From the NCBI RefSeq assembly GCF_001894865.1, contig NZ_BCXA01000012.1, positions 124,001-188,000 of the forward strand: 64,000 nucleotides of DNA, written 5' to 3'. Positions 31,694 to 55,070 of the stretch are shown piece after piece; within the stretch, counting starts at the first letter, position 1; each line of letters opens with the position of its first letter. The notes under the pieces were generated by a model, which was not told the origin of the DNA, did no database searches, and was given only the letters and a program-made list of their open reading frames with translations. This DNA is from Rhodococcus maanshanensis NBRC 100610 (GTDB lineage: Bacteria > Actinomycetota > Actinomycetes > Mycobacteriales > Mycobacteriaceae). The translations under genes were made by a program, and so were the position numbers.

Positions 31694-32509
31694 GTGCTGC
31701 TCACCGTCGACGTCCGCAACACCAACATCTCACTCGGGTTGTTCACCGGCACGGGCGACCACTCGAAGTTGGTGCGGGACTGGCGGATGCGCACGGATCC
31801 GCGGATGACGGCGGACGAGTTGGCCTGGATGCTGCGGGGCCTGCTCGGGGAGCGAGTGGACCAGATCGTCGGGGTGTCGGCGCTGTCCACAGTCCCGTCG
31901 GTGCTGCGGGAACTGCGGGTGATGCTGACCCGGTACTGGGAGCACGTCCCGCACGTGGTGGTCGAGCCCGGTGTGCGAACCGGGGTGCCGCTGCTGGTCG
32001 ACAACCCGAAGGAGGTCGGGGCCGACCGGATCGTCAACAGTCTTGCCGCGCATCACCTTTACGGCGGGCCGTGCATCGTCGTGGACTTCGGGGTCGCGAC
32101 CTGTGTCGATGTGGTCTCGGCGAAGGGTGAGTTCCTCGGCGGGGCGATCGCGCCTGGCCTGGAGACCTCGACGGACGCGCTCGCCTCGCACTCGGCTGCG
32201 CTGCGGAAGTTCGAGCTGGTGCGCCCGAGGGCCGTGGTCGGCAAGAACAGCGTCGAGTGCATGCAGGCCGGGGCGATCTTCGGGTTCGCAGGCTTGGTGG
32301 ACGGTCTGGTGCGCCGGGTGCGCGCCGAGGTGCCCGCGTTCGCGGGCGACGACGTGAACGTGATCGCAACGGGGGAGAGCGCCCCACTGGTGATGCCGGA
32401 GTCGGAGACGATCGCGCACATCGAGAGGGACCTCGCGCTCGAGGGCCTGCGGATCGTCTATGAGCGCAACCAGGCCCGACGGGCCGCGAAGCACCCACCG
32501 GTGGCCTGA
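31694..32509 (+). CDS. coaX: Type III pantothenate kinase
   Basis: First step of CoA synthesis, 271 residues, ASKHA fold. The phosphate loop [12 protein letters not shown] has Arg where many bacteria have Gly, as in mycobacterial CoaX. It continues with [24 protein letters not shown] and the catalytic-Asp strand [30 protein letters not shown]. The second phosphate loop is in [19 protein letters not shown] 31694 follows panD directly, so panC-panD-coaX form one vitamin-B5/CoA operon. Confidence 0.95.
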
Positions 32510-32528
32510 CCGCCGATGGTCGGAGGGT

Positions 32529-32556
32529 TTGCCAATTCGGGGTTCTGTGCCACACT
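32529..32556 (+). promoter_or_regulatory. Promoter of the cysteine-dioxygenase leader transcript
   Basis: TTGCCA (32529-32534) and CACACT (32551-32556) are spaced 16 bases, a plausible SigA-type pair. Transcription would then start at or next to the GTG at 32564, making the leader peptide leaderless. Confidence 0.5.
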
Positions 32557-32563
32557 GGTTGGC

Positions 32564-32605
32564 GTGAATCGCCGCATGGTTGCTCAGGAGTGTTGTCGAG
32601 GCTGA
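32564..32605 (+). CDS. Cysteine-codon leader peptide (MNRRMVAQECCRG)
   Basis: A 13-residue reading frame starting with GTG and ending at TGA 32603. The tandem TGT TGT codons (32591-32596) lie three codons before the stop. It is preceded by a promoter that would make it leaderless and followed by competing hairpins and then cysteine dioxygenase. Cys-codon attenuator peptides are known in mycobacteria upstream of cysteine-related operons; this one resembles them in size, leaderless start and terminal Cys codons. Two adjacent Cys codons are rare in so short a frame. The assignment is from pattern, not from expression data. Confidence 0.65.
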   Translation: MNRRMVAQECCRG

Positions 32606-32646
32606 ACGCCGCCTCGACTCGTTGAGGCACGTCTCACGGCCTTGAC
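32595..32646 (+). promoter_or_regulatory. Candidate cysteine attenuator (competing stem-loops)
   Basis: Four segments can pair in mutually exclusive ways. Segment 1, GTCGAGGC (32595-32602), overlaps the second Cys codon. It pairs perfectly with segment 2, GCCTCGAC (32611-32618). Segment 2 also pairs, with one G-U, with segment 3, GTTGAGGC (32621-32628). Segment 3 pairs, with two G-U, with segment 4, GCCTTGAC (32639-32646). A ribosome stalled on the Cys codons would cover segment 1 and release segment 2. No U-tract follows 3:4, so control may be by Rho or by access to GGAG at 32661. Confidence 0.55.
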
Positions 32647-32672
32647 CAATTCACCCTCCTGGAGTTTCTCCC

Positions 32673-33239
32673 ATGCTTTCCACATCTGTGGTCTCTTCTT
32701 CGGTGCCGTCACCGGTCACCGCACTGTCCTCGCCGAGCCGCCTGCGGCCTGCCGACCTGCTGCGCATCACCGATCAGGGCGCGCAGGACGTGCTCGACGG
32801 CCGCTTCGCCGATCTGCTGCCAGGGGCCGGCTCGTGGCCGACGGACGAGCGCTGGTCCACCCGCCTGCACGCCGACGATGACGTCGACGTCTGGCTGATC
32901 AGCTGGGCGCCAGGCCTCGCGACCGAACTGCACGACCATGCCGGATCGCTCGGCGCGCTCACCGTGCTGAGCGGTGTCCTGGCCGAATACCGTTGGAGCG
33001 GTGGTGAACTGAAGTACCGCACGCTCGGCGCGGGCGATCAGGCCTCCTTCCCGCTCGGTTGGGTGCACGACGTCATGCAGGCCCCAGGCGACCCGGTGGA
33101 TCCGGTCGCTCCGACGCTGAGCGTGCACGCCTACTCGCCGCCGCTCACGGCGATGTCCTACTACGAGGTGACCGATCAGGGCACCCTGCGGCGCACCCGC
33201 ACCGAGCTGACCGATCTCCCGGAAGGACAGTCGGCATGA
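32673..33239 (+). CDS. Cysteine dioxygenase type I
   Basis: A cupin enzyme that oxidises L-cysteine to cysteine sulfinate with O2 and Fe(II). 188 residues. Metal ligands fit the CDO three-His pattern: His87 and His89 in ATELHDHAGSLGALTVLSG and His132 in PLGWVHDV. Residues 1-24 are a Ser/Val-rich, non-conserved start. A ribosome-binding site, GGAG at 32661, lies eight bases before the ATG. It is coupled by ATGA to a rhodanese-like gene, a pairing seen in other actinobacteria. The Cys leader upstream suggests that it responds to the cysteine supply. Confidence 0.9.
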   Translation: MLSTSVVSSSVPSPVTALSSPSRLRPADLLRITDQGAQDVLDGRFADLLPGAGSWPTDERWSTRLHADDDVDVWLISWAPGLATELHDHAGSLGALTVLSGVLAEYRWSGGELKYRTLGAGDQASFPLGWVHDVMQAPGDPVDPVAPTLSVHAYSPPLTAMSYYEVTDQGTLRRTRTELTDLPEGQSA

Positions 33240-33658
33240 CCATCGACCAGATGCTCGAGAAGGCCCGCGCGAGCTACCGCCGCATGTACGTGTTCGAGGT
33301 CGCCGAGGCCGTCGCCCGCGGCGCGATCATCGTCGACATCCGGCCGCAGGCCCAGCGTGCCGCCGAGGGGGCGTTGCCCGGCGCGCTGGCGATCGAACGG
33401 AACGTGCTCGAGTGGCGCCTCGACCCGACGAGCAGCGCACGCATCGCGCTGGCCGTCGATCACGACGTCGAGTGGATCGTGGTCTGCTCGGAGGGCTACA
33501 CGTCCAGCCTGGCGGCCGCGGCGCTGCAGGAACTGGGCCTGCACCGGGCGACCGATCTCGTCGGCGGGTACCAGGCGCTCCGTTCCGCCGGTCTGCTCGG
33601 CGTCGCGACGCGGGCCCGGCACTACGTTCGGGAGGCCGCGGCCGTCGCCGCTCACTGA
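33236..33658 (+). CDS. Rhodanese-like sulfurtransferase
   Basis: A single-domain rhodanese of 140 residues. The fold markers are [37 protein letters not shown] and a catalytic loop CSEGYTSS with Cys84, the expected persulfide carrier. A C-terminal [11 protein letters not shown] closes the domain. It starts inside the stop of cysteine dioxygenase (ATGA), so the two act together, probably in handling sulfane sulfur from cysteine oxidation. Cytosolic, with no signal peptide. Confidence 0.88.
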
Positions 33659-33666
33659 GGGCGCAT

Positions 33667-33672
33667 TATGCT
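33667..33672 (+). promoter_or_regulatory. Leaderless -10 for lysS
   Basis: TATGCT sits eight bases before the GTG at 33681. There is no ribosome-binding site between, so the lysS transcript is probably leaderless. Confidence 0.55.
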
Positions 33673-33680
33673 GGTCACCC

Positions 33681-35192
33681 GTGAGTGATGCAGCAATTCA
33701 GCAGGCCGATGACACCCCCGAGCAGCTCCGGATCCGCCGAGAGAAGCGGGACCGGATCCTGGCGCAGGGTCAGGAGGCCTACCCGGTCTCGGTGCCGCGC
33801 ACGCACACGCTCGCACAGGTGCGCGCGCAGCACCCTGACCTGGAGCCGGACACGGCCACGGGCACCGAGGTCGGCGTCGTCGGCCGGGTGATCTTCGTCC
33901 GCAACACCGGCAAGCTCTGCTTCGCGACGTTGCAAGAGGGCGACGGCACCCAGCTGCAGGCCATGATCAGCCTGGCCTCCGTCGGCGAGGACGCGCTGGC
34001 GGCGTGGAAGTCGGACGTCGACCTGGGCGACTTCGTCTTCGTGCACGGCGAGGTGATCAGCTCTCGCCGCGGCGAGCTCAGTGTGATGGCCGACGCCTGG
34101 CAGATCGCATCGAAGTCGCTGCGTCCGCTGCCGGTCGCGCACAAGGAGATGAACGAGGAGTCGCGGGTCCGTCAGCGGTACGCCGACCTGATCGTGCGGC
34201 CCGAGGCGCGGGAGATGGCCCGCAAGCGTGTCGCGGTGGTCCGTGAGCTGCGCAACGCGCTCGAGCGGCGTGGGTTCCTCGAGGTGGAGACCCCGATGCT
34301 GCAGACGCTGGCCGGCGGCGCGGCGGCGCGCCCGTTCATCACCCATTCGAATGCCCTCGACATCGATCTGTATCTGCGGATCGCCCCGGAACTGTTCCTC
34401 AAGCGATGCGTCGTCGGCGGTATCGAGAAGGTTTTCGAGATCAACAGGAACTTCCGCAACGAGGGCATCGATTCGACGCACTCGCCGGAGTTCGCGATGC
34501 TCGAGACGTACGAGGCATACGGCACCTACGACGATTCCGCGACGATGACACGCGAATTGATCCAGGAGGTGGCGCAGGCCGCCTTCGGGACCCAGCTGGT
34601 GACGCTCGCGGACGGCACCGAGTACGACCTCGGCGGCGAGTGGAAGACGCTCGAGATGTACCCGTCGCTGTCCGAGGCGATCGGGGTGTCGGTCACCCCC
34701 GAGACGACCGTCGACGAACTGCTCGCCCTCGCGGAGAAGGTCGGACTCGAGGTGCCAAAGGACAAGGGGTACGGCCACGGCAAGCTCGTCGAGGAGCTGT
34801 GGGAGCACCAGTGTGGCGACCAGCTCTTCGCGCCCACCTTCGTGCGGAACTTCCCTGTGGAGACCTCGCCGCTGACCCGTCAGCACCGCAGCGAGCCGGG
34901 CGTGACGGAGAAGTGGGACCTCTACGTGCGCGGGTTCGAGCTGGCCACCGGCTACTCGGAGCTCGTCGACCCGGTGATCCAGCGTGAGCGGTTCGTCGAC
35001 CAGGCGCGGCTGGCGTCGGCTGGCGACGACGAGGCGATGGCCCTTGACGAGGAGTTCCTCGCCGCGATGGAGCAGGGAATGCCGCCCACGACGGGCACCG
35101 GCATGGGGATCGACCGTCTGTTGATGGCGTTGACCGGTTTGGGAATCCGCGAAACTATCCTCTTCCCAATTGTGCGCCCCTCGGCTCGCTGA
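33681..35192 (+). CDS. lysS: Lysyl-tRNA synthetase, class II
   Basis: Charges tRNA-Lys; cytosolic homodimer. 503 residues from GTG 33681. An N-terminal OB-fold ([33 protein letters not shown]) is followed by the class II core. Motif 1 is [21 protein letters not shown], motif 2 is [24 protein letters not shown], and motif 3 is [15 protein letters not shown]. Length and motifs are those of the housekeeping enzyme, LysS of the Rv3598c position, and not of the LysX lysyl-phosphatidylglycerol fusion. The coding sequence is followed by a 119-bp promoter region for lsr2. Confidence 0.96.
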
Positions 35193-54843: not shown

Positions 54844-54903
54844 GGTTCCTCCTGGGATTCCGCGTCCCTTAAAAAGCCCATGCGATGGCCCCGGTATCTG
54901 GCT

Positions 54904-55000
54904 GTCGAGGGTGTGCCTCGATCACAGTGGCGCGACCGCTCCGGACTCTCACCGGATTCCCGTCAACCATCGCTATTACCAGCGCACTCTCGCATTGACC
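54904..55000 (-). promoter_or_regulatory. Cobalamin riboswitch of cbtBA
   Basis: On the minus strand, GGGAATCCGGTGAGAGTCC, then GGAGCGGTCGCGCCACTGTGA, reproduces the conserved core and the B12 box of the cobalamin riboswitch. It is followed by the hairpin TCGAGG/CCTCGA (54904-54920). The cbtB ribosome-binding site lies about 55 bases further on. High cobalamin would shut off cobalt uptake. The 5' limit of the aptamer is not defined by eye. Confidence 0.82.
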
Positions 55001-55070
55001 CGACTGTGGTGTCAATCGCAACCGTCCGGCCGATCGGCGAGACGTTCGCGCGTACTTCACCGGGCGGTCG

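Follow-up and report, generated by a model that had tools for sequence, protein, structure and literature searches.

In attenuators of the trp type, the leader RNA folds through mutually exclusive 1:2, 2:3, and 3:4 stems, and a pair of sensor codons overlaps segment 1. Mycobacteria reportedly carry polycysteine leaderless short ORFs (the work of Canestrari 2020), on which stalled ribosomes are said to obstruct an RNA that would otherwise hide the ribosome-binding site downstream. This work is cited in PMC9094748, PMC9031893, and PMC13236596, and its precursor is PMC4633059, where the legend of Figure 7 gives cysA2, Rv0485, and nirA as targets of the polycysteine leader. In its passages on Cys leader peptides, a paper of 2005 (PMC1262725) places them before the cys operons of Mycobacterium and P. 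acnes and before cbs of B. longum; it describes no conserved hairpins as candidate terminators among them and suggests Rho.

The locus described here lies in a stretch of 64,000 nucleotides from Rhodococcus maanshanensis NBRC 100610 (the window), in which a 13-codon frame with two adjacent Cys codons precedes cdo, a thiol dioxygenase gene followed by a rhodanese gene. Like the mycobacterial polycysteine short ORFs, the frame is predicted to be leaderless, has its tandem Cys codons near the stop, and comes first in a sulfur-metabolism operon, and it would probably act in the same manner. Unlike them, with the targets as named in the legend of PMC4633059, it would control a thiol dioxygenase–rhodanese operon; moreover, the strand that pairs with the start codon is part of the leader coding sequence itself, and some species add a second hairpin. 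With the leaders of PMC1262725, it shares a short frame that ends shortly after consecutive Cys codons, but it has a conserved pairing that sequesters the ribosome-binding site and stands before a different gene. The 1:2, 2:3, and 3:4 stems and the sensor codon pair overlapping segment 1 recall the trp type, whereas no terminator was seen in the region scanned, extra stems hide the ribosome-binding site, and segments 3 and 4 are not conserved. Among the literature matches listed, no paper dealt with a leader before cysteine dioxygenase; the loci of Canestrari 2020 may include one.

A conserved short frame with tandem cysteine codons

The features of the leader and of the operon are as follows.
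32551..32556, plus strand: −10-like element CACACT (consensus nAnnnT), which ends 7 nt before the leader GTG, with conserved spacing
32564..32605, plus strand: leader ORF, VNRRMVAQECCRG, with a GTG start and 13 codons plus TGA, between coaX and cdo
32591..32596, plus strand: tandem cysteine codons TGT TGT, the putative sensor
32673..33239, plus strand: cdo, thiol dioxygenase of the CDO_I family with a putative substrate (PF05995, E 2.9e-10)
33236..33658, plus strand: single-domain rhodanese (PF00581, E 1.5e-10), whose ATG overlaps the cdo stop

Loci encoding relatives of the cdo protein were taken from genome contigs, and 80 of the 81 confirmed loci were kept. A frame of 8–20 codons with a Cys pair near its stop was present within 300 nt upstream of cdo in 78 of the 80 loci, compared with 18 of 1346 controls (300-nt stretches from both strands of the same loci), so that the 13-residue frame with tandem Cys codons reported in the preliminary description is both present and widely kept. 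Among the 78 leaders, 72 began with GTG and 64 had exactly 13 codons; the Cys pair was TGTTGT in 76 and TGCTGT in two. The two loci with no CC leader were L094 (Tsukamurella) and L049 (Williamsia sp. CHRR-6), and in the latter a frame of 12 codons with a single Cys, VIHHPTSRRCRS, is found 82 nt ahead of the match. All four Gordonia loci among the 80 carried the leader. It was also found in all six same-genus genomes searched, the window's own included; in the remaining five it is identical to that of L015–L019 of the 80 loci.

A further 40 loci were then considered. For the window's own GTDB family, the leader was found in 9 of 10 (the miss being L154), two of these nine, L146 and L151, repeating L022 and L047 of the 80. 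Outside the family, a looser scan found some CC frame before cdo in 2 of 30 loci (L134 and L164). The frames of L164 and L134, ending in CCRCC and RCCC, may be due to chance or may be independent Cys leaders. None of the Rfam covariance models reached its gathering score at the leader site, and the best match within 32500–32760 was M23 on the minus strand (E 0.76).

Conservation extended to single bases. In the Rhodococcus/Nocardia-type group, 30 rows gave 25 distinct sequences after removal of duplicates, and leader codons 9–13 (GAG TGT TGT CGA GGC) were identical in all 25, wobble positions included. CGA is a minor Arg codon, accounting for 8 of the 115 Arg codons across seven window genes. 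Identity at the base level together with this minor codon argues for selection on the RNA and not on the peptide alone.

A sigma-70 consensus scan found no promoter at the leader. The nAnnnT spacing was conserved: of the 33 leaders of L015–L047, 29 had A at −12 and 29 had T at −8, and for the 45 of L048–L094 the count was 35 at each of the two positions. A fixed distance of 7 nt is what a leaderless message would show, and we infer a transcript that probably starts at or adjoining 32564. The leaderless start proposed for the small frame is a likely one, predicted from the −10-like spacing.

The gene order in the window is panC-panD-coaX, cdo, rhodanese, and then an apparent lysS, where coaX was identified by Pfam and the names panC, panD, and lysS are those we take these neighbours to have. 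The rhodanese gene followed cdo in every one of the 80 loci and in all 40 further loci, but coaX could be found upstream in no more than 28 of the 80. The leader thus goes along with cdo-rhodanese rather than with coaX. Between the rhodanese stop and the likely lysS GTG (33656–33683) there are 22 nt, and with so small a gap lysS may be co-transcribed with the cysteine-controlled operon.

Pairing between leader codons and the cdo start site

The minimum free energy (MFE) fold of the window leader had an energy of −47.8 kcal/mol (z −3.7 against 300 dinucleotide shuffles). In this fold, the 1:2 and 3:4 stems that had been proposed before are enclosed in a longer stem that had been overlooked. The elements of the fold are listed below.
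32574..32579, plus strand: anti-start arm GCAUGG, inside leader codons 4–6, pairing with 32671–32676, which holds the cdo AUG
32582..32590, plus strand: anti-Shine-Dalgarno arm GCUCAGGAG, leader codons 7–9, pairing with 32656–32665
32595..32602, plus strand: segment 1, GUCGAGGC, overlapping the second Cys codon and codons 12–13
32611..32618, plus strand: segment 2, GCCUCGAC, partner of segment 1 in the MFE fold
32621..32628, plus strand: segment 3, GUUGAGGC, part of an extra hairpin missing from 18 of 25 sequences
32639..32646, plus strand: segment 4, GCCUUGAC, partner of segment 3 in the MFE fold
32656..32676, plus strand: sequestered cdo ribosome-binding site, with CUCC, the Shine-Dalgarno (SD) stretch UGGAG at 32660–32664, and the start codon AUG at 32673–32675

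Across the 25 distinct sequences, 94.9% of the cells of the start stem were paired, compared with 34–60% in slid controls, a comparison that itself favours the counted structures, as they were derived partly from the same sequences. Four of the seven pairs were changed on both sides (14 such cells), and the covariation score was reached by none of 500 shuffles in a test that ignores kinship among the sequences. The amino acids of leader codons 4–7 vary between species while the pairing stays. Even the start codon was involved: its first base in cdo is A or G, and the leader partner follows it (UA 12, UG 10, CG 2, unpaired 1), so that ATG or GTG was matched by the leader in 24 of 25. The paired fraction was 95.5% in the compact form (18 sequences; slid, 36–49%) and 96.1% in the four-segment form (7 sequences; slid, 33–43%).

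The duplex between leader arm and ribosome-binding site was also assessed. L049 and L094, which have no CC leader, were left out of all folding, and L076 and L077, in which no Shine-Dalgarno start was recognised, were left out of the duplex, SD-probability, and opening-cost tests. In the Rhodococcus/Nocardia type, the mean z was −4.2, with values below −2 in 23 of 24. Cognate duplexes had a mean energy of −23.9 versus −22.1 for swapped partners (permutation p 0.0004), but only 3 of 24 leaders paired best with their own start site. Elsewhere, the p values were 0.26 for Williamsia (n = 7), 0.04 for Gordonia (n = 4), and 0.23 for Mycobacteriaceae (n = 33). For the 16 Mycobacterium sequences, the consensus fold shared this topology, leader codons 2–5 lying on the Shine-Dalgarno side; 96.7% of cells were paired (slid, 38–66%), and one pair was changed on both sides, a score reached by 62 of 500 shuffles. 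Outside the Rhodococcus group, the structural case is weak.

The preliminary description had held that a small frame or stem pairing not conserved in relatives would speak against an attenuator, and had proposed to look for kept TGT codons. The frame, the partner gene, and, in the Rhodococcus group, the pairing are conserved, and the TGT codons are kept to the extent given above.

Predicted effect of a stalled ribosome

Because the 5′ arm facing the Shine-Dalgarno stretch and start codon of cdo is made of leader codons, stalling on the Cys codons should open the operon and not close it. A ribosome with its A site on the first Cys codon was assumed to have a footprint of approximately leader nt 10–42, enough to cover the entire 5′ arm. 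Folding calculations for the window put the opening cost of the cdo start site at 12.2 kcal/mol without stalling and at 5.4 kcal/mol with it. For the 30 Rhodococcus/Nocardia-type rows, it fell from 15.5 (free) to 7.5 kcal/mol (stalled), with a drop of >3 in 28 of 30, and for each of five footprint sizes the drop was >3 kcal/mol in 23 of the 25 distinct sequences. When the codons before Cys were shuffled, the free cost was lower by a mean of 6.6 kcal/mol, with z >2 in 24 of 30. Nocardia L033 and L034 had almost no drop (12.4 to 12.0 and 10.3 to 9.0, respectively). In the other groups, the cost changed from 9.8 to 6.1 in Williamsia (9 rows), from 7.4 to 6.0 in Gordonia (4 rows), and from 7.6 to 6.7 in Mycobacteriaceae (34 rows); z >2 against shuffled leaders was obtained in 4 of 9, 0 of 4, and 2 of 30 (30 of the 34 rows used), respectively.

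The probability that the SD stretch is unpaired was tried as a second readout, and it did not support opening on stalling, whereas the opening cost of the whole site did. The value went from 0.21 to 0.23 in the window and from 0.28 to 0.18 in 27 Rhodococcus/Nocardia rows, being lower by >0.1 in 15 of 27 and higher in none; among all 77 rows, it rose by >0.1 in 7 and fell in 29. In the model, local pairs arise in the ribosome-blocked state. In the Rhodococcus/Nocardia-type group, pair counts and opening cost, though not the SD unpaired probability, support an RNA structure that sequesters the ribosome-binding site and that a ribosome on the Cys codons would block.

We consider it likely that the leader is a cysteine-responsive translational attenuator of ordinary polarity, ON when Cys-tRNA is short. 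Transcription would begin at the leader GTG, and a ribosome would translate the leaderless frame of 13 codons. With ample Cys-tRNA, it would finish and depart, and codons 4–13 would fold onto the downstream RNA, codons 4–6 with the cdo start codon, 7–9 with the Shine-Dalgarno stretch, and 11–13 with segment 2; translation of cdo-rhodanese would then be low. When Cys-tRNA is short, the ribosome would halt at TGT TGT with its footprint over the whole 5′ arm, the start site would open, and cdo-rhodanese would be made.

The preliminary description had argued for the inverted logic, in which cdo is switched on by complete translation of the leader at high cysteine and turned down by stalling, since cdo would degrade cysteine. 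This agrees with the annotated reaction and with the lower SD unpaired probability in the 15 rows mentioned above, and a ribosome at the stop codon also cuts the opening cost (to 6.7 kcal/mol in the window and 8.6 in the group), so that frequent passage could help. Nevertheless, the A site on the first Cys codon gave the lower group cost: 7.5, compared with 8.6 for a ribosome at the stop, and 7.7 compared with 12.6 for the smallest footprint. Among the folds made, none was seen that was both favoured by stalling and hid the whole start site, and related Cys leaders precede supply genes. As the leader arm is predicted to sequester the start site and stalling lowers its opening cost in the model, the inverted polarity was not supported, and we regard it as unlikely.

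The four-segment layout of a classical attenuator was the one first proposed, and much of its geometry stood; as a transcription attenuator, it would have a 3:4 terminator and a 2:3 antiterminator. Segment 1 does overlap the second Cys codon, beginning inside it; the 1:2 and 3:4 stems appear in the MFE fold, and 2:3 can form at −5.4 kcal/mol. In the seven sequences with the four-segment form, 100% of the cells between segments 1 and 2 were paired and two pairs of the 3:4 helix were changed on both sides. These carriers are the window, R. oryzae, R. spelaei, Rhodococcus sp. RD6.2, R. triatomae, and two Nocardia. Across 32595–32646, segments 3 and 4 resemble a tandem copy of hairpin 1:2. What did not stand was an intrinsic terminator, with 0 terminator-like sites within 32380–32800, and generality: 18 of the 25 sequences have a single hairpin and miss segments 3 and 4. 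The layout is therefore real yet is not the conserved core, and control by such a terminator seems very improbable. That the leader merely delivers or removes ribosomes by translational coupling, its Cys codons being kept for RNA pairing, would suit the base identity of codons 9–13 in all 25 Rhodococcus-type sequences, which pairing alone could demand, but it is most improbable of all given that tandem Cys codons persist in Williamsia, Gordonia, and Mycobacterium leaders despite a differing pairing sequence and that extra Cys codons occur at codon 4 in 15 of 25 Rhodococcus-type leaders and at codon 8 in 14 of 16 Mycobacterium leaders.

Other cysteine leaders and the putative role of the operon

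Two further Cys leaders with leaderless spacing were found in the same genome.
L125:96-182 (G000:C61): second Cys leader, VQTSQELMLTRRRTVDLCRLGGCCCTCC, 130 nt before the gene that precedes a double-rhodanese cysA2-type gene (cysA2-type operon)
L124:13376-13465, minus strand (G000:C17): third Cys leader, VSATAVHQVRHELALIAVGMLAVADIDCC, 176 nt before a sulfate-binding protein gene

When a strict filter was applied, the two recurred in five and four, respectively, of the six same-genus genomes, the window's own included. Judged by family, the targets of both would be sulfur-supply genes. A motif search of the genome with TGTTGTCGAGG gave 9 places, three of them on the reverse strand, and the place before cdo alone was a short frame; another motif pattern gave 8 places, with short CC frames at L004, L005, and L007. 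Elsewhere in the window, a cobalamin riboswitch (RF00174) was found at 54870–55006 on the minus strand (41.8 bits).

If cysteine were the substrate of the cdo product, the polarity that we infer, ON at low cysteine, would be wasteful. H87, H89, and H132, which we take to be the 3-His iron ligands, were invariant in 20 of 20 aligned proteins. R64, presumably the position where CDOs bind the carboxylate, was kept in 20 of 20 and is compatible with L-cysteine as the substrate. No NCBIfam model names the cdo product. By sequence and fold, its nearest solved relative is an ergothioneine dioxygenase, that of Thermocatellispora tengchongensis (PDB 8qfl–8qfr), which has Ser in 8qfl/8qfr where the window protein has R64; unlike in that system, the partner of cdo in the window is a rhodanese and the substrate is putative. 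Among the matches listed, no ergothioneine paper dealt with the Thermocatellispora enzyme. Of five AlphaFold models, two were good (82.6 and 82.2) and three were poor (48–52). The cdo product has no cysteine at all, as is the case for 59 of 77 cdo proteins, this one included; its low cysteine content was considered as evidence and set aside as too weak to use. Given this nearest relative and a rhodanese partner in every one of the 80 loci, the paradox of polarity may sit in the gene name, and cdo is perhaps not a cysteine destroyer.

Published expression data may touch on both genes. In Gordonia sp. NB4-1Y, PMC7661421 reports the genes of a cysteine dioxygenase and of four sulfurtransferases as more highly expressed with three organosulfonates than with MgSO4; the dioxygenase gene, which has no locus name in that text, is reported to be up under sulfate limitation, which speaks indirectly for the ordinary polarity. 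In R. qingshengii grown on DBT, the rhodanese-type proteins IGTS8_peg751 and peg1918 were down, according to PMC8557817. One of these two may be the cdo partner, which would count against the model of ON at low cysteine.

Expression at low cysteine would be odd for a cysteine destroyer, which hints that the enzyme may really salvage sulfur. The physiological point of the attenuator would then be to let the dioxygenase and the rhodanese together release sulfur from a thiol in times of cysteine shortage. We put forward tentatively, and with rather less than even confidence, that cdo-rhodanese serves sulfur salvage (e.g., from ergothioneine or another storage thiol) and not cysteine disposal, and that it may have been captured into the set of Cys-tRNA-sensing leaders across Rhodococcus, Nocardia, Gordonia, Williamsia, and Mycobacterium by a leader coding sequence that would act at once as sensor, anti-Shine-Dalgarno strand, and anti-start-codon strand. 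The case is a compact one: 13 codons would carry the sensor and both sequestering strands, and natural compensatory changes reach the start codon itself. An apparently catabolic operon would thereby join the genes under cysteine-sensing leaders as an unexpected target, and the paradox that cysteine is destroyed when scarce becomes a testable claim on the real role of the enzyme.
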